Below, piece by piece: positions 3 through 25,865 of a stretch of 64,000 nt of DNA. Position numbers and translations under genes: made by a program. The DNA lies in NCBI GenBank assembly GCA_902563555.1, contig CACEXM010000001.1, positions 1 through 64,000 on the forward strand. The letters are read 5' to 3'. Every line of letters begins with the position of its first letter. The first letter of the stretch is position 1. The notes beneath the pieces are model-generated. The model was not told where the DNA came from. It ran no database searches and saw only the letters and a program-made list of their open reading frames with translations. Origin of the DNA: an uncultured Pelagibacteraceae bacterium. GTDB lineage: Bacteria; Pseudomonadota; Alphaproteobacteria; Pelagibacterales; Pelagibacteraceae.

Positions 3-176
3 ATACAAAAAATCAGAAGTAAAAATAATAAAAATTGGATGGACTTATTGAGGTTATCATTAAAACTTGACTTTAATTCTACTTCTAAAATTCTTAAGGA
101 AATTTGTAAAGATGACAAAAGAATTTCCAACCTTGCTCAGAAAATACATAGATTGAATAAATATAATGGAAAATAA
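3..176 (+). CDS. C-terminal part of an ORF running in from the left edge (unknown product)
   Basis: Open frame 3 from window start, ...NWMDLLRLSLKLDFNSTSKILKEICKDDKRISNLAQKIHRLNKYNGK*, overlapping the next ATG by 11 nt. Confidence 0.55.
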   Translation: MQKIRSKNNKNWMDLLRLSLKLDFNSTSKILKEICKDDKRISNLAQKIHRLNKYNGK

Positions 177-1185
177 AGTGTTTTTCATAGCAGAAATCTC
201 AGCAAACCATTGCGGAAACTTTAAATTAGCAAAGAATTTAATTAAATGTGCTTATGTAAATGGTGCTGATGCTGTAAAACTTCAAACCTATACTGCTAAT
301 ACAATGACATTAAAATCTAATAAAAAGTATTTCAAAATTAAACAGGGTTTGTGGAAAGGTTATACGCTTTGGGATTTATACAATAAAGCACACACTCCAT
401 TAAAATGGCATAAAGAACTTTTTAAATATGGAAAATCTTTAGGTATAAAAGTATTTAGTACACCATTTGATGATACTGCTGTTGATTTTTTAGAAAAATT
501 AAAGTGTCCAATATATAAAATTGCCTCATTTGAAATGACTGATTTGAATTTAGTTAAAAAGGTATCTCAAACCAAAAAACCTATCATAATATCTACAGGA
601 ATGGCAAACTTAGAAGAAATTGAAACAACTATTAAAGTAGCAAAAAAAAATGGAGCAAAAAACATTACTCTATTGTATTGTGTCAGTAATTATCCATCAT
701 CAATTAGTGATTTTAATTTAAACAATATCAAAATTTTAAAAGACAAATTTAAATGTAGAGTAGGGATTTCAGACCACTCGACAGATAATAGAGTTGCTAT
801 TGCTGCTATCGCTAGTGGGGCAGAAGTTATTGAAAAACATATCGCTTTAGATAATCAAAAAAAAGGTTTTGATATTGATTTTTCATTGAAAGGAAAAGAA
901 ATTAAGAAATTAAGAGATGATATTGATGTTGCTTTTAAACTTTTAGGTAAGAATAGTTTTTTTAGAAATAAAAGTGAAAATAAATCTAAAATTTTTAGAA
1001 GGTCAATATTTACAACTAAGAATATAAAAAAAGGTGAAAAGTTTACTAAAGATAATATAAGAGTTATTAGACCTGGTTACGGTTTAATGCCTAAATACTT
1101 CAATAAAATTTTAAATAAAAGGTCTCCAGTAAATATTTCTAAAGATGAACCATTAAAACCTATTGTATTAAAGAATTTATATTAG
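166..1185 (+). CDS. pseI: NeuB-family sialic/pseudaminic acid synthase (PseI-like)
   Basis: 339 aa; FIAEISANHCGN, KLQTYTA, KGYTLWDLYNKAHTPLKWHKELF, STPFD, IASFEMTD, ISTGMA, GISDHS, C-terminal SAF-like domain. Confidence 0.88.
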   Translation: MENKVFFIAEISANHCGNFKLAKNLIKCAYVNGADAVKLQTYTANTMTLKSNKKYFKIKQGLWKGYTLWDLYNKAHTPLKWHKELFKYGKSLGIKVFSTPFDDTAVDFLEKLKCPIYKIASFEMTDLNLVKKVSQTKKPIIISTGMANLEEIETTIKVAKKNGAKNITLLYCVSNYPSSISDFNLNNIKILKDKFKCRVGISDHSTDNRVAIAAIASGAEVIEKHIALDNQKKGFDIDFSLKGKEIKKLRDDIDVAFKLLGKNSFFRNKSENKSKIFRRSIFTTKNIKKGEKFTKDNIRVIRPGYGLMPKYFNKILNKRSPVNISKDEPLKPIVLKNLY

Positions 1186-1240
1186 GATTTCTAAACCCTA
1201 CTCTCCACATATCGTCTAATTAAGTTTTCGACTATAAATG

Positions 1241-1269
1241 AGTAGGGGCGTTCTGTTGCCAGGTGCCCC
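1241..1269. repeat. Copy 1 of ssrA 3'-end hairpin repeat (AGTAGGGGCGTTCTGTTGCCAGGTGCCCC)
   Basis: Same as 2732-2761 apart from one G in the G-run; minus strand folds as GGGGC-AC-CUG-GCAA-CAG-AAC-GCCCC. Confidence 0.85.
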
Positions 1270-1301
1270 GAACTTTGTACCATTATTTGCTAATAATTAA
1301 T

Positions 1302-2096
1302 TTAATCATTTTTTGAGCATATCGCTGTATAAGAATATTCTAGTCTATGTGAAATATGCTCGACTTTAAAATTTGCACTTTTAAGATCGTTTTCTAATTC
1401 TTCTTTTGTAAAATATTTAGCAAAAGATGGATTTAACTGGTCAAAGATAACATAACTTCTGTGCTTGAATGACCATTTATTAAATGCACCAAGAAAATAT
1501 TTTTTTAATGGTAATGAGATAAAGTTACATAAATATCCATAAGGATAAGTTAGTATAGTTAAAATCTTTGATAATATTCTTAAAGTAAAATCTGGTAGTA
1601 AAATTGTCACTCTTCTTAAATTGTTAAAAATAAATAGATACAATTCATTTCCTTCCTTTCCATATACCCAAATTATAAATCTACCGTTCTTTTTTAGTGA
1701 TTTTTGTATTTTTTTTAAAACTTCTCGATATTCTGGTATATGGTGTATTACCCCTATAGAAAATACATAATCAAATTTGTTTTCAAAATTAATATCTTGT
1801 CCTTTAATATTAAAAAATTCAACTTTGTTGGATTTTATATTCTTTTTTGCAACCTCTATAGCTGCAGATGGTTCAATTCCAAAAATTTTATTTGGATTGT
1901 ATTTAAGTAGGTTATTAGATATTCTTCCACTTCCAACTCCAATTTCAGCAATTTCTTTTTCTTTAATTAGATTTAAATCAAACGGATGAACAATTTCCTC
2001 TAGTAATTTAATGCTACCCCAATTTCCATTGATATCTCCATCAATAGTAAACTGTTCACCAAAATCTTGATAACTTTCTTTATGATCAATTTTCAT
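1302..2096 (-). CDS. SAM-dependent class I methyltransferase
   Basis: 264 aa; IAEIGVGSGRIS (motif I), FDYVFSIGVIHHI, LKKNGRFIIWVYG. Confidence 0.8.
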   Translation of the reverse strand: MKIDHKESYQDFGEQFTIDGDINGNWGSIKLLEEIVHPFDLNLIKEKEIAEIGVGSGRISNNLLKYNPNKIFGIEPSAAIEVAKKNIKSNKVEFFNIKGQDINFENKFDYVFSIGVIHHIPEYREVLKKIQKSLKKNGRFIIWVYGKEGNELYLFIFNNLRRVTILLPDFTLRILSKILTILTYPYGYLCNFISLPLKKYFLGAFNKWSFKHRSYVIFDQLNPSFAKYFTKEELENDLKSANFKVEHISHRLEYSYTAICSKND

Positions 2097-2146
2097 TAAC
2101 TTTTAAAGTTTAAATTTAACATATTTTAAATATTTTTCCCTCTTAA

Positions 2147-2167
2147 GGGGGCGTTCTGTTTCCCGGC
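2147..2167. repeat. Copy 2 (partial/degenerate) of ssrA 3'-end hairpin repeat (GGGGGCGTTCTGTTTCCCGG)
   Basis: Shares GGGGGCGTTCTGTT with 2736-2749, then diverges; followed by TTTGCTTACTTAATCAAA resembling ssrA TTTGCTTAATTAACAAA. Confidence 0.65.
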
Positions 2168-2306
2168 AATAGATTAGAAATTAGCATATTTGCTTACTTA
2201 ATCAAACTTCTTCGTTGAAAACTTCGTTGATAGGTCTCCTTATTTTGTCCAAGGTTTGCCTTTTGACTTCGTTGAAAAACCTCAGGGGTTAGATTACTCT
2301 TACTTT

Positions 2307-2732
2307 ATGAAAAAACTATCTCTATATTTCTTTCTTGGTTTATTTATATTTAATTCTGCTTACGCAGAAGTTTATTATTGCACTGATGGAGCGATTACAG
2401 GGTTTAATAGTAAAAAAGATAGTTACGGGACTTACAGTGAAGACTCGGTTTATTTTAAACCACAAAGATTTACTGCACATATAAATTTTGAAAAATTACA
2501 ATTTGGTACCAAGGAACTTTCTGAATTTTTGCAAATTAAAAGAGATGACGGCACCACACTTTTTGCTGCCACTTGTGAGTGGGGTTTTGGTCAAACTCAT
2601 ATGGGTTGTGTTAGTAATAATAAGACTGATCTATTTTCAATAAGAGTAGAAAATTTGGAGTATGTTAGGTCAAAAAATTTTGGTGGTGGAGATAGTATTT
2701 TAATTGCTTATGGAAAATGTGAAAAATTTTAA
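2307..2732 (+). CDS. Small secreted protein of unknown function
   Basis: Signal peptide MKKLSLYFFLGLFIFNSAYA|EVYYC from ATG 2307; the listed ORF start at 2256 is a longer non-ATG version. Confidence 0.65.
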   Translation: MKKLSLYFFLGLFIFNSAYAEVYYCTDGAITGFNSKKDSYGTYSEDSVYFKPQRFTAHINFEKLQFGTKELSEFLQIKRDDGTTLFAATCEWGFGQTHMGCVSNNKTDLFSIRVENLEYVRSKNFGGGDSILIAYGKCEKF

Positions 2733-2761
2733 GTAGGGGGCGTTCTGTTGCCAGGTGCCCC
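2732..2761. repeat. Copy 3 (native) of the hairpin repeat, 3' end of ssrA coding piece
   Basis: AGTAGGGGGCGTTCTGTTGCCAGGTGCCCC; contiguous with the tmRNA body. Confidence 0.85.
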
Positions 2762-2996
2762 AAAACCCCGTTTGCTTAATTAACAAAGTTAATTAGGCAG
2801 CAAGTGCGTAACTTTCGTTAGCAATTATAAATAGCCCTTTTCGGAGGTACAATTCCGAACGAAAGAACAGCCTTTAGTCATCCGTCGAATCTAGTTCACC
2901 CCCATAAGTTGAAAATGGTGGAGGTGGTGGGTACTGCCCCCACGTCCGCAATGGTTATTACGAAATTCGTTTATCGTCATAGTTGGAAAACCAACA
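2733..2996 (-). ncRNA. ssrA: Circularly permuted two-piece tmRNA (alphaproteobacterial type)
   Basis: Minus strand: acceptor piece ...GGACGTGGGGGCAGTACCCACCACCTCCACCA (T-arm, CCA end at 2916), 12-nt intervening loop 2904-2915, coding piece 5' GGGGGTGAACTAGATTCGACGG (from 2903); GGGGGUG pairs with CACCUCC; tag ORF GCT AAC GAA AGT TAC GCA CTT GCT GCC TAA at 2822-2793. Confidence 0.93.
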
Positions 2997-3001
2997 TGAT
3001 T

Positions 3002-3029
3002 AATATAAAAGTAATTCTGAAAGATTCAA
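3002..3029 (-). promoter_or_regulatory. Putative sigma70 promoter of ssrA
   Basis: Minus strand TTGAAT (3029-3024), 16 nt, TATATT (3007-3002), start expected about 2995 just before GTTGG-TTTT-CCAAC. Confidence 0.45.
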
Positions 3030-3039
3030 TAAATTATTC

Positions 3040-3987
3040 ATGAAATTAACTAAAGAACAACAACAGGAAATTAAAGATCAACAATCTCAAGAAAATAAAA
3101 CAAAAAGAGTCACTGTTGCAGAATTAGAAAATATTCTATATGAGGCAATTCCCATTTTAGATCATGGTTTTATTAGAGTGATTGATTATATGGGAGATGA
3201 TACGTCAATAGTTCAAGCAGCAAGAGTTTCTTACGGTAAGGGTACTAAAAAAGTTTCAACTGACTCCGGGTTAATAAAATATTTAATGAGGCACTGGCAT
3301 AGTACTCCATTTGAAATGTGTGAAATTAAATATCACGTTAAACTTCCAATTTTTATTGCAAGGCAATGGATTAGGCACAGAACTGCGAATGTAAATGAAT
3401 ATTCTGCAAGATATTCAATTTTAGACAAGGAATTTTATTTACCGTCCTTAGAAAATTTAGCTGCACAATCTCAAAGTAATAGACAGGGTAGAGGTGACGT
3501 TCTTACAGGAGAGCAAGCAAAAAAAGTTCTAGACTTATTAAAGAAGGATGCTGAACAAACCTATGATAACTATGAAACTATGCTTAATGAAAGATATGAT
3601 GGCTCAGTAATAGATGAAAAACAAGTTGGTTTAGCTAGAGAGCTTGCAAGAATGAATTTAACATTAAATACTTACACCCAGTGGTATTGGAAAACAGATC
3701 TTTTAAATTTAATGAATTTTTTAAGATTAAGAGCAGATCATCATGCTCAATTTGAGATTAGGGCTTACGCAGATGTTATGCTTGATACTGTAAAAAAATG
3801 GGTTCCAATTACCTATGAAGCTTTTATGGATTATAGAGTAGGTGGTACAGAAATCTCGTCTAAAGGTAAGAAAGTGATTCAAAAGTTAATAAGTGGAGAA
3901 AAAGTGGATATTGATAAATCAGGATTATCAAAAAGAGAATGGAATGAGCTTATGTCTGTTTTAGAACTTAAAGATAAATTGATTTAA
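3040..3987 (+). CDS. thyX: FAD-dependent thymidylate synthase
   Basis: ThyX motif [15 protein letters not shown]; 315 aa. Confidence 0.96.
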
Positions 3988-4792
3988 TTTTTTTAGCTAT
4001 GTCTAAATAAATCTGAGATATTTCATTCTCTGGATTACTTTCGACAATAGGTTTTCCTTGATCTCCGGACTTACCAACTTCAGGATTAATTGGTATTTCA
4101 GCTAAAAATTCTTTATTATATTCTTCCGCTGTTCTTTTAACTCCACCTTCTCCAAAAATTGCATATTTTTTTCCATCATCTCCGGTAAAAGAGCTCATAT
4201 TATCTATAAGACCTAAAATTTTTACCCCAAGCTTATCAAACATTTTTATTCCTCTTTTAACATCTAAAAGAGCTACTTCTTGTGGGGTAGATACTATGAT
4301 TGCTCCATTCATTTCGATGCCTTGAGAAAAAGTTAATTGAGTATCACCAGTTCCAGGTGGCATATCTACAATTATAAAATCTAAATCTTTCCAATTTACT
4401 TTTTGAACGAATGTTTTAATTGCACTTGTCACCATTGGACCTCTCCATATCATTGGAGTTTTTTCATCTGTCAGAAAACCTATAGACATACATTGAATAT
4501 CGTATTTAACTATAGGCTCCAACTTTTGACCATCACTCTTTGGTTTCTCATTTATCCCAAACATTTTAGGTATAGAAGGTCCATATATGTCAGCATCTAA
4601 CAACCCAACTTTACAGCCGATTTGTTTTAATGCTAGAGCAAGGTTTGTTGCAAAAGTTGACTTTCCAACTCCACCTTTAGCACTTGAAATTGCAATAGTG
4701 AATTTTGTTCCATTAATTGGCTTTCTTTCTGCTGATTTTCGACTTAATTTTTTTCGCATTGCGTCACTTAATTCTGGCTTTTCTTTAGGCAT
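3968..4792 (-). CDS. mrp: Mrp/NBP35-family Fe-S cluster carrier ATPase
   Basis: [41 protein letters not shown]. Confidence 0.93.
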
Positions 4793-4844
4793 AATGTGAT
4801 CTTACCTTGTTTTTCAGCATAAAGACATTATATAGATTGCCAGT

Positions 4845-5948
4845 ATGTCAGATGATTTTAGACAAAGCGGTGGAAGTCCTTGGGGCAAGCCCCCAGGAGG
4901 AGGAAGCGGAAATGGTTCAGGTAGAGGACCGACACCTCCAGATGTCGATAAAATTATACGAGAATTTCAAGAAAAACTTAAAAAGTTTTTACCAGGAGGA
5001 AGTTCCTCTGGTGGAAAACAAGCTATCTTAGTTTTACTTATTTTAGGTTTTGTTTGGTTGGCAAGCGGTCTTTACAGAGTATTGCCAGATGAACAAGGCG
5101 TAGTATTAAGATTTGGAAAATTTGTAAAAACTACTCAACCAGGATTAAATTATCATATTCCTTTTCCCGTTGAGTCTGTACTTACTCCAAAGGTTACAAA
5201 AGTGAACAGAATAGATATAGGTTTTAGGTCTGAGAGGGATAGTGGATTTTCTTCTCAAGGTGGTGTTGCTGATGTTCCACAAGAAAGCTTAATGTTAACT
5301 GGTGATGAAAATATTGTGAATATAGACTTTTCTGTTTTTTGGGTAATTAAAGATGCTGGAAATTTTTTATTTAAAATTCAAGATCCAGAGGGCACCGTAA
5401 AAGCTGCAGCAGAAACTGCAATGAGAGAAGTTATTGCTCGATCAAATATTCAACCTATTCTTACAGAGGGAAGATCTTTAATAGAAACTGATACACAAGA
5501 GATTATTCAAAAAATTTTAGATGAATACACAAGTGGTATTCAAATCACTCAAGTCCAAACGCAAAAAGCTGATCCACCAGATCAAGTAATTGACGCTTTT
5601 AGAGATGTGCAAGCAGCAAGAGCTGATATGGAAAGATCCAAGAACGAGGCTGAAGCATATGCAAATGATGTTATACCAAGAGCTCGAGGGGAAGCAGCTA
5701 AAATATTACAAGCTGCTGAAGCGTATAAAAAAGAAGTTGTTGCAAAAGCAGAAGGTGAAGCAAGTAGATTTTTAGCAATTTATAATGAGTACAAAAATGC
5801 TAAATCAGTAACACAAGAAAGAATGTATTTAGAAACTATGGAAAAAGTTTTAGCAGACATAGATAAAGTAATCATTGAAAAGAATGCTGGATCGGGTGTA
5901 GTGCCATATTTACCATTACCTGAATTAAAAAAGAAAGTGACTAATTAA
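4845..5948 (+). CDS. hflK: FtsH protease modulator HflK
   Basis: Gly-rich N-terminus, single TM, band-7/SPFH domain; followed by HflC. Confidence 0.95.
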   Translation: MSDDFRQSGGSPWGKPPGGGSGNGSGRGPTPPDVDKIIREFQEKLKKFLPGGSSSGGKQAILVLLILGFVWLASGLYRVLPDEQGVVLRFGKFVKTTQPGLNYHIPFPVESVLTPKVTKVNRIDIGFRSERDSGFSSQGGVADVPQESLMLTGDENIVNIDFSVFWVIKDAGNFLFKIQDPEGTVKAAAETAMREVIARSNIQPILTEGRSLIETDTQEIIQKILDEYTSGIQITQVQTQKADPPDQVIDAFRDVQAARADMERSKNEAEAYANDVIPRARGEAAKILQAAEAYKKEVVAKAEGEASRFLAIYNEYKNAKSVTQERMYLETMEKVLADIDKVIIEKNAGSGVVPYLPLPELKKKVTN

Positions 5949-5951
5949 ATT

Positions 5952-6824
5952 ATGAATATGGGAAAAATTATTGCTGGTATTAGTGTTGCAATAGCTGCAA
6001 CATTATTCTTTTCAATTTTTATTGTGAAAGAAGTAAATCAAGCTATTGTTTTACAGTTTGGTGATCCAAAAAGAATAATTGTAAAACCAGGTTTAAATTT
6101 TAAAATTCCGTTTATTCAAAACGTAGTTTTTTTAGATAAAAGAATTTTAAATTTAGATACTCCACCAGAGGAAGTTATTGCATCAGATCAAAAAAGATTA
6201 ATCGTAGATGCTTTTGCAAGATTCCAAATAGTGGATCCTTTAAAATTTTATATTTCTGTTGGTAATGAGCGGGTAGCTAGATCAAGATTGGCAACAATTA
6301 TTAATTCAAGAATTAGAAATGTTTTAGGTCAACAAGAACTTCAAACTTTGTTATCAGAAGATAGAACAAAGCAAATGGCTTTAATTCAAGAAGGAGTTAA
6401 TAATGAAGCCGAAAACTTTGGGATTAAAATCAATGATGTAAGAATTAAAAGAGCTGATCTTCCTCAGGCAAACAGTGATGCAATTTTTAGAAGAATGCAA
6501 ACTGAAAGAGAAAGAGAGGCAAAAGAATTTAGAGCAAGAGGTGCGGAGATGGCAGTAACAATCACTTCTACAGCAGACAAAGAAGTAACAGTGATTTTAG
6601 CTGACGCACAAAAAAAATCAGAGATTATGAAAGGTGAAGGTGACGGTAAAAGAAATAATATATTTGCAAGCGCCTTTGGACAAGATCCAGAGTTTTTTGC
6701 ATTTTACCGAGCAATGCAAGCGTACGAAAAAGCTTTGATAGGAGGTGAAACTTCATTGATTTTATCACCTGACAGCGAGTTTTTTAAATTTTTTGGAAAC
6801 ATTAAGCAGCCTCAATCAAATTAA
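5952..6824 (+). CDS. hflC: FtsH protease modulator HflC
   Basis: SPFH domain, REREAKEFRARGAE, adjacent to hflK. Confidence 0.95.
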   Translation: MNMGKIIAGISVAIAATLFFSIFIVKEVNQAIVLQFGDPKRIIVKPGLNFKIPFIQNVVFLDKRILNLDTPPEEVIASDQKRLIVDAFARFQIVDPLKFYISVGNERVARSRLATIINSRIRNVLGQQELQTLLSEDRTKQMALIQEGVNNEAENFGIKINDVRIKRADLPQANSDAIFRRMQTEREREAKEFRARGAEMAVTITSTADKEVTVILADAQKKSEIMKGEGDGKRNNIFASAFGQDPEFFAFYRAMQAYEKALIGGETSLILSPDSEFFKFFGNIKQPQSN

Positions 6825-25153: not shown

Positions 25154-25213
25154 CTATAATGCATTTTTTTTTAAGACCTGATATATTGTGATTTGATAGT
25201 CCTTCTTAGCCAT
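25154..25213 (-). CDS. Candidate 19-aa small ORF MAKKDYQITIYQVLKKNAL
   Basis: ATG preceded by GGGAGCTAAAG (good SD and spacing), stop close upstream of the TIGR03643 gene. Confidence 0.35.
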   Translation of the reverse strand: MAKKDYQITIYQVLKKNAL

Positions 25214-25250
25214 CTTTAGCTCCCGGTTTTTAAGGACTATCTTTTTTTTT
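25195..25250 (+). ncRNA. Hairpin with terminator-type U-tract, candidate sRNA or 5' regulatory element
   Basis: GATAGTCCTT (25195-25204) pairs perfectly with AAGGACTATC (25232-25241), followed by T9 ending at the LysE ATG. Confidence 0.55.
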
Positions 25251-25865
25251 ATGCTCCCATTGGATTTTATCCTTTTTTTACAGATCATTATTTTTTTATT
25301 TATTACACCTGGTACCCCTAGAATAGTAATCATTTCTTATTCAATGAATTATGGAGTTAAAAATTGTATATGGACAGCTTTTGGAGATGTTACCGCAAAT
25401 TTACTACAGGCAACTTTAGTAATTTTTGTCATCGGCTCTTTTTTATCTGACAATCCAAATATCCTAAATATTTTTAAATGGATTGGTGTAATTTATTTAA
25501 TTTATTTAGCTTATGATGTTTACAAATCTTCACCAAAAGATGTTAATTCGAAAATAATTAGCTCAAAAGGAACTTTTTCTTTTTATAAAGATGGTTTTTT
25601 AGTTGCAGGCACAAGTCCTAAGGCTTGGTTGTTCTTTCCTTTAATATTCCCTCAATTCATTGACTTTAGTACCAATTATATCGTCCAGTTTTTTATTTTA
25701 ATAACTACTTATGTTGTTTTAGATTTTATTTCATTAATTGGTTACGCTCTGTTGGCACAAAAACTTATTACATGGATAAAAGCAAATCCAAAAACAATTA
25801 ATACAATCTCAGCGAGTGTTTTGGTAATCATAGCCTTAATTATTATTGTAACACAACAGTATTAG
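25251..25865 (+). CDS. LysE/RhtB-family amino-acid exporter
   Basis: FITPGTPRIVIISYSMNYG, 6-TM. Confidence 0.85.
   Translation: MLPLDFILFLQIIIFLFITPGTPRIVIISYSMNYGVKNCIWTAFGDVTANLLQATLVIFVIGSFLSDNPNILNIFKWIGVIYLIYLAYDVYKSSPKDVNSKIISSKGTFSFYKDGFLVAGTSPKAWLFFPLIFPQFIDFSTNYIVQFFILITTYVVLDFISLIGYALLAQKLITWIKANPKTINTISASVLVIIALIIIVTQQY

Follow-up and report, generated by a model that had tools for sequence, protein, structure and literature searches.

Tandem islands at ssrA, the gene for tmRNA, are already known. In Dehalococcoides they lie downstream of the gene, and short direct repeats copied from its end bound them; their recombinase is DsiB, a CcrB-like serine recombinase, the islands with an integration module measure ~12 kb, and 15 of 31 are without that module and have been suggested to be cis-mobilisable (PMC3146451). 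Cis-mobilisable elements (CIMEs) are flanked by att sites, have no integrase or transfer genes and are found in tandem (PMC3146451). In Methylophilaceae, an additive flexible genomic island at tRNA-Lys is marked by recurring 20-bp repeats of the end of the RNA gene, and tycheposons, which are tRNA-associated and 4-200 kb in size, contain a tyrosine recombinase (PMC10872708). For SAR11, a 2007 survey that covered the hypervariable regions detected no attC sites of integrons, reported one integrase gene in HVR2 and noted tRNA genes beside HVR4 (PMC2217521); tmRNA is mentioned neither there nor in a further SAR11 survey (PMC7318151). The tiny, arm-matched form of ssrA island that we report here for SAR11 appears to be undescribed in the literature searched, outside which most subscription papers lie and in which we found no account of a SAR11 ssrA cassette system.

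The SAR11 arrays share features with each of these systems. As in Dehalococcoides, elements are inserted in tandem downstream of ssrA and are bounded by direct copies of its end, but the linked integrases are of the tyrosine type, no serine recombinase family is present among the cargo Pfam families listed (the best 25 of 37, and 25 of 27), most elements are only ~1 kb long, their arm repeats are variable and matched, and the ends of other genes carry copies as well. The hosts, like those of the Methylophilaceae island, are streamlined and aquatic, and here too the repeats of an RNA-gene end recur. The cassettes are not tycheposons, given their median size of 0.99 kb, their ssrA site and the lack of a recombinase among the cargo families listed. 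Judged by sequence features alone they are CIME-like: att-type cores flank 129 distinct elements at a shared integration site, and for 111 representatives of the cargo the Pfam families listed include no integration or transfer genes. They differ from CIMEs in being much smaller and very frequent, and in having recurrent end classes with motif-matched arms. Integrons hold arrays of mostly single-gene cassettes with a short repeated site between them. The SAR11 arrays are likewise made up mostly of single-gene units split by a short repeated site, but they have no linked IntI, their site need not be a hairpin, they carry arm repeats and their cargo is mostly antisense; a folded attC stands at every integron cassette, whereas class III junctions, described below, do not fold.

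We observe repeat copies, recurrent end types, matched arms, a cargo in which no recombinase was seen, lateral spread, and two relatives that bear an integrase at the site. On these sequence comparisons we think it likely that the cassettes are non-autonomous, CIME-like mini-islands mobilised in trans by ssrA-specific integrases. SAR11 are among the most abundant bacteria and have streamlined genomes. One-gene inserts that are frequent and can be recognised by their att core would provide a sequence handle by which gene gain can be found, counted and dated, and reading them as att cassettes would offer a testable mechanism for gene gain in streamlined genomes. The ssrA cassettes may represent a common route by which very small genomes gain or swap genes.

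The ssrA array of the window

The window, the whole stretch of DNA analysed, comprises 64,000 nucleotides from the first base of contig C1 onward, in an assembly that is 78% complete. Its ssrA (2732-3033, minus strand) is a permuted two-piece tmRNA gene of the alphaproteobacterial type, identified with ARAGORN and Rfam RF01849 (221.9 bits), and its 3' end would be the primary attachment site. The initial annotation had proposed that this end is repeated twice more, with all copies in one orientation, and both points are borne out. Copy 3, the junction of ssrA with the first element (2737-2761, minus), and copy 1, the distal junction (1245-1269, minus), share the exact 25-mer GGGGCGTTCTGTTGCCAGGTGCCCC and fold as full hairpins at -12.6 and -13.0 kcal/mol, respectively; the 25-mer had 0 matches in 100 dinucleotide shuffles, so none would be expected by chance. 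Copy 2 (2148-2160, minus), which had been described as shortened and diverged, is a real copy, but the description needs revision. It matches the ssrA end over the core AACAGAACGCCCC only and forms no hairpin (-2.8 kcal/mol), and it adjoins a 28-nt element-end sequence that is found beside the same core at ~19 distinct junctions. Because this end recurs, we regard copy 2 as a genuine junction whose left half comes from another type of element end. The copies are best read as attachment-site (att) junctions, in the order ssrA, element A, junction, element B, junction.

Element A (2161-2736, ~0.58 kb) is bounded by copies 3 and 2, and element B (1270-2147, ~0.9 kb) by copies 2 and 1. The cargo of element A is a small secreted protein of 141 aa, counted from its ATG (2307-2732, plus; ORF translation), which has no Pfam match and has relatives in two other cassettes; its stop codon (2730-2732) abuts copy 3. 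The left end of this element, AAGTAAGCAAATATGCTAATTTCTAATCTATTGCCGGG (2161-2199, minus), is of class III, and behind it the arm-like repeats TCAACGAA can be read directly at 2208-2275 on the minus strand (plus-strand TTCGTTGA at 2211-2218, 2223-2230 and 2268-2275). The same arm-like motif recurs in class III ends at other loci. In the window arm repeats occur at this left end only, with none at the right end of element A or in element B. The cargo of element B is a SAM-dependent methyltransferase of 264 aa (1302-2096, minus; Pfam Methyltransf_11, E 2.6e-15), and its left end (..AATAATGGTACAAAGTTC, 1270-1302, minus) belongs to class I. The placing of one methyltransferase gene between copies 1 and 2, and of one secreted-protein gene between copies 2 and 3, was therefore correctly described. 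It had also been stated that no recombinase gene lies in the window; this holds, and the 78%-complete assembly likewise gave no match to PF00589.

A NeuB-family gene (166-1185, plus) lies at the contig edge just past copy 1, which hints that a surface-sugar region adjoins the array. Elsewhere in the window an Rfam match to the rhtB sRNA (25177-25259, plus; 78.4 bits) lies upstream of a LysE/RhtB-like exporter gene.

Element ends, arm repeats and the core across SAR11

The search of SAR11 genomes for further copies, which the initial annotation had called for, found the 25-mer at up to 3 mismatches in 174 of 201 same-genus (SAR11-type) genomes, with at least two copies in 84 and at least three in 23; a reversed-pattern control gave zero in each of the entries listed. 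Extra partial tmRNA matches are present in the genus of the window, whereas in a second family from this order none of 24 genomes had more than one tmRNA match. At 60 fetched loci, the additional copies close to ssrA are found 3' of the gene and share its orientation, spaced from a few hundred bases to ~6 kb, and a further 80 loci were fetched by means of an element-end 29-mer, giving ~140 in all. From these we delimited 129 distinct elements bounded by duplicated ssrA-end cores (median 987 bp, interquartile range 576-1635, range 121-6291), a number that does not represent a frequency because the presence of an element end was the reason for picking the 80 loci, and that of several copies part of the reason for picking the others. 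Among public genomes, the element end of the window matches only records named Pelagibacteraceae, Pelagibacterales or Pelagibacter, which marks its genus as SAR11-type.

The left ends fall into recurrent classes, with 48 junctions in class I, 34 in IIa, 12 in IIb, 19 in III and 9 others. Ends of classes I and II pass via ACAAAGTTC into the full hairpin, and those of class III pass via CCGGG into the core CAACAGAACGCCCC only; copy 1 of the window is a class I junction and copy 2 a class III junction. Behind the hairpin at the end opposite this left end, many elements carry two short repeats, at ~56 and ~67 bp, and in many the same motif is found again ~66-90 bp before the next hairpin. Overall these arm repeats lie 55-90 bp from the core. 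Their sequence varies among elements (GTCGGCAT, TACGGGAT, TGGCACA, CCGCACT, GGCGTCA and others) and agrees between the two ends of one element. When end classes and relatives were pooled, with kinship ignored, true end pairs from 75 elements gave a mean arm-match score of 10.56, compared with 6.13 for permuted pairs (sd 0.25, maximum 7.25), and so exceeded all 5,000 permutations. Arm repeats of this kind resemble the arm sites of lambda-type integrases. Some elements have none, which we count against mobilisation in trans.

Within the core, the 7-nt centre AACAGAA (positions 13-19) is nearly invariant and the outer stem is variable among 249 distinct copies. In several arrays the distal copy combines the canonical left half with a local right half, as in AACTGCCC at rnhA. 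From the nearly invariant centre and from the chimeric distal copies alike, exchange may be placed in the middle of the site. Half-hairpin swapping had been considered as proof of circular intermediates; the half-swap test came out at 8 vs 7, which is neutral, and we dropped this argument, so that the chimeric junctions at rnhA and elsewhere stand as individual examples only.

Lateral spread and copies at other gene ends

Cassette content changes between close relatives. The two closest in the fetched set, with thyX 93-94% identical, differ at the ssrA site, one having a different 1.6 kb element and the other no second copy within ~9 kb. This comparison of strains, proposed in the initial annotation, supports its suggestion that the ssrA end serves as an attachment site whose duplications bound successive small inserts, and shows that the same genes are not kept in all relatives. 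Cassettes can be far more alike than their hosts: one pair shows 95.6% identity, against only 82.5% for the chromosome next to ssrA, and two further comparisons gave 93.3% vs 82.1% and 86.5% vs 77.0%. The same cassette is also found at two sites, in one case at another gene end (L084) and at rnhA (L151) with 92.4% identity, and in a second at another gene end (L188) and at ssrA (L205) with 91.6% identity over 1.6 kb.

These data bear on whether the cassettes could be remnants, that is, elements which once had their own integrase and are now immobile deletion derivatives of prophages or satellites, with homologous recombination between the repeats as their only means of being reshuffled. Fixed tandem islands of such a kind have been proposed for Dehalococcoides (PMC3146451), and the rarity of integrase-bearing elements, the divergence of some junctions and the elements without arms would all be in keeping with this. 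Such remnants would not, however, be expected to stay compact with both ends kept and matched, or to occur as very similar cassettes in diverged hosts and at different sites, and we consider this explanation improbable.

Copies are not confined to ssrA. In some genomes they follow the stop codons of rnhA (by 1-2 nt), of pnp (by 6-9 nt) and of a gene for a 68-aa secreted protein (by 9-17 nt); in other genomes these sites are empty, and some rnhA ends have a copy with no cassette behind it. We count the solo copies at the rnhA and pnp ends against the att-cassette explanation. They would suit a dispersed RNA element, either a terminator or a processing signal that was copied to the ends of genes, with the genes between copies being incidental, as would the rnhA variants that keep stem pairing (for example GGGCA with TGCCC). 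Since such an element would hardly keep its centre invariant whilst its stem varies, and would not be expected to have conserved element ends and matched arms, we hold this to be very unlikely. The repeat also keeps its tie to ssrA. The ssrA hairpin of G028 is a variant, with GGGTAACAG instead of TGGCAACAG, and the same variant is present in each of the five cassette copies found on another contig, from which it follows that the cassette core goes with the ssrA of its host. The possibility raised at the outset, that the hairpin is unrelated to ssrA, is thus answered: it occurs at other gene ends too, yet it is ssrA sequence. At two loci (L083 and L092) a gene ending ..IKDY(R)(T/S)KA lies upstream of the first copy and is followed by a stretch that resembles the end portion of ssrA (over 62 nt, at 87%, in L092); larger pieces of ssrA may also move.

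Integrases, cargo and the proposed mechanism

Two relatives carry a 343-aa tyrosine integrase of phage type (PF00589, phrog_1) at the site. In G160 it directly follows an ssrA copy, together with small genes and a primase-like protein, and the element is complete, closing at the next copy after 6.17 kb; a 2.4 kb cassette follows in tandem, and its two genes include no integrase. In G265 the integrase lies beside an ssrA copy and the repeats GGCGTCAT and GGCGTCAC, which carry GGCGTCA, a motif of several cassettes, and the contig ends soon after. The two enzymes share 52% identity, and with the other SAR11 relatives found neither exceeds 34%. Given that this ssrA-linked type occurs in only 2 of 399 genomes and that arm motifs are far more varied, most of the matching integrases would be unseen. 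The G160 element combines an integrase and a replication gene in a small space, as phage satellites do, and in gene content it resembles minimal satellites such as the PICMIs (PMC10803314); the SAR11 cassettes have neither integrase nor primase.

Between copies there are one to a few genes per segment, and 156 of 191 ORFs are antisense to the repeat. Cargo types include restriction-modification systems, nucleases, methyltransferases and secreted proteins, which hints at functions in defence against phages and in variation of the cell surface. No recombinase was seen among the best 25 of 37 and 25 of 27 Pfam families listed for 111 cargo representatives, and no integron integrase in these families or in the PHROGs of half of the representatives. 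Otherwise different cargo proteins (for example in L067, L100, L141, L142 and L208) share a near-identical, signal-peptide-like start, e.g. MKKLLGIVVLGLLLSGNAYA, and this suggests that the left end of the element may supply a common 5' part to cargo genes.

Most SAR11 genomes have one tyrosine recombinase of 300-325 aa, which is Cre/Xer-like. This enzyme would be the recombinase at work if the hairpin is a folded, attC-type site recombined in the manner of an integron, as the single-gene units with a hairpin between them might imply and as had initially been envisaged. That mechanism does not hold up well. Class III junctions have no hairpin, the AACAGAA centre is nearly invariant, the cargo is mostly antisense, matched arm repeats would be needless for such enzymes, and a phage-type integrase stands beside the site in two relatives. 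The conserved recombinase, of which one was tested, aligns with Cre over its length and also with Xer, and it falls below the Xer and integron-integrase cut-offs (31 bits against the integron-integrase profile, where the cut-off is 265); no repeat copy was found near it in the regions read. We rejected it as the mobiliser, there being no supporting linkage to the repeat, and regard an integron-like system as very unlikely. In several loci (L269, L331-L338 and L341) this recombinase, at 301-319 aa, is mostly located beside surface-polysaccharide and alkyltransferase-like genes. Other integrases were also encountered in SAR11 genomes: prophage-like elements with integrases of 420-450 aa lie beside tRNA-Leu(tag) (L265, L267, L268, L357 and L359), and enzymes distantly related to the ssrA-linked ones (L340, L347, L354 and L355) in some cases adjoin tRNA-Met genes.

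For mobilisation in trans we propose the following scheme. For non-autonomous integrative elements with a median of ~1 kb, attB would be the end (3') of the coding piece in the permuted ssrA. Each would circularise with one att core, so that the junction of the circle, itself an inferred intermediate, would run from the left end of the element through the AACAGAAC core to the right end. An ssrA-specific tyrosine integrase of phage type would then recombine this core with either the end of ssrA or a copy already resident there, its amino-terminal part binding the arm repeats at the element ends and strand exchange taking place in or near the AACAGAA centre. Exchange of this type would stack elements in one orientation and leave ssrA intact. 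The enzyme that moves the cassettes is probably borrowed from rare satellite-like elements, which would hold integrase and primase at the same site and supply the former in trans; the scheme presumes both that the cassettes are active at present and that they have a route between cells. A wider version, in which tiny cargo-only cassettes across SAR11 are matched through their arms to particular integrases, use several docking sites (ssrA, rnhA, pnp and others) and share rare satellites as helpers, is a tentative proposal that we find somewhat doubtful. If true, such a cassette economy would amount to functionally integron-like gene capture built from phage-type integrases.

We also considered an origin in known phages and rejected this, as neither viral contigs nor phage records contain the element ends, a single weak match by chance excepted. 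The sequence ACAAAGTTCGGGGCACC had two viral matches, both in coding regions of apparently unrelated phages, and searches of viral contigs for close relatives of the two ssrA-linked integrases gave one weak match for one of them and none for the other. Viral matches to the 17-mer core are mostly to sequences like phage-encoded tmRNA, with a few chance matches in coding regions. Putative tmRNA genes of phages, in which the core is CACCTGGCAACAGAACG and the stems vary but stay complementary, were seen in many viral contigs (L123-L130 and most of L218-L263), and in eight viral contigs with the SAR11 stem the tmRNA tag ends in ..ENLALAA.
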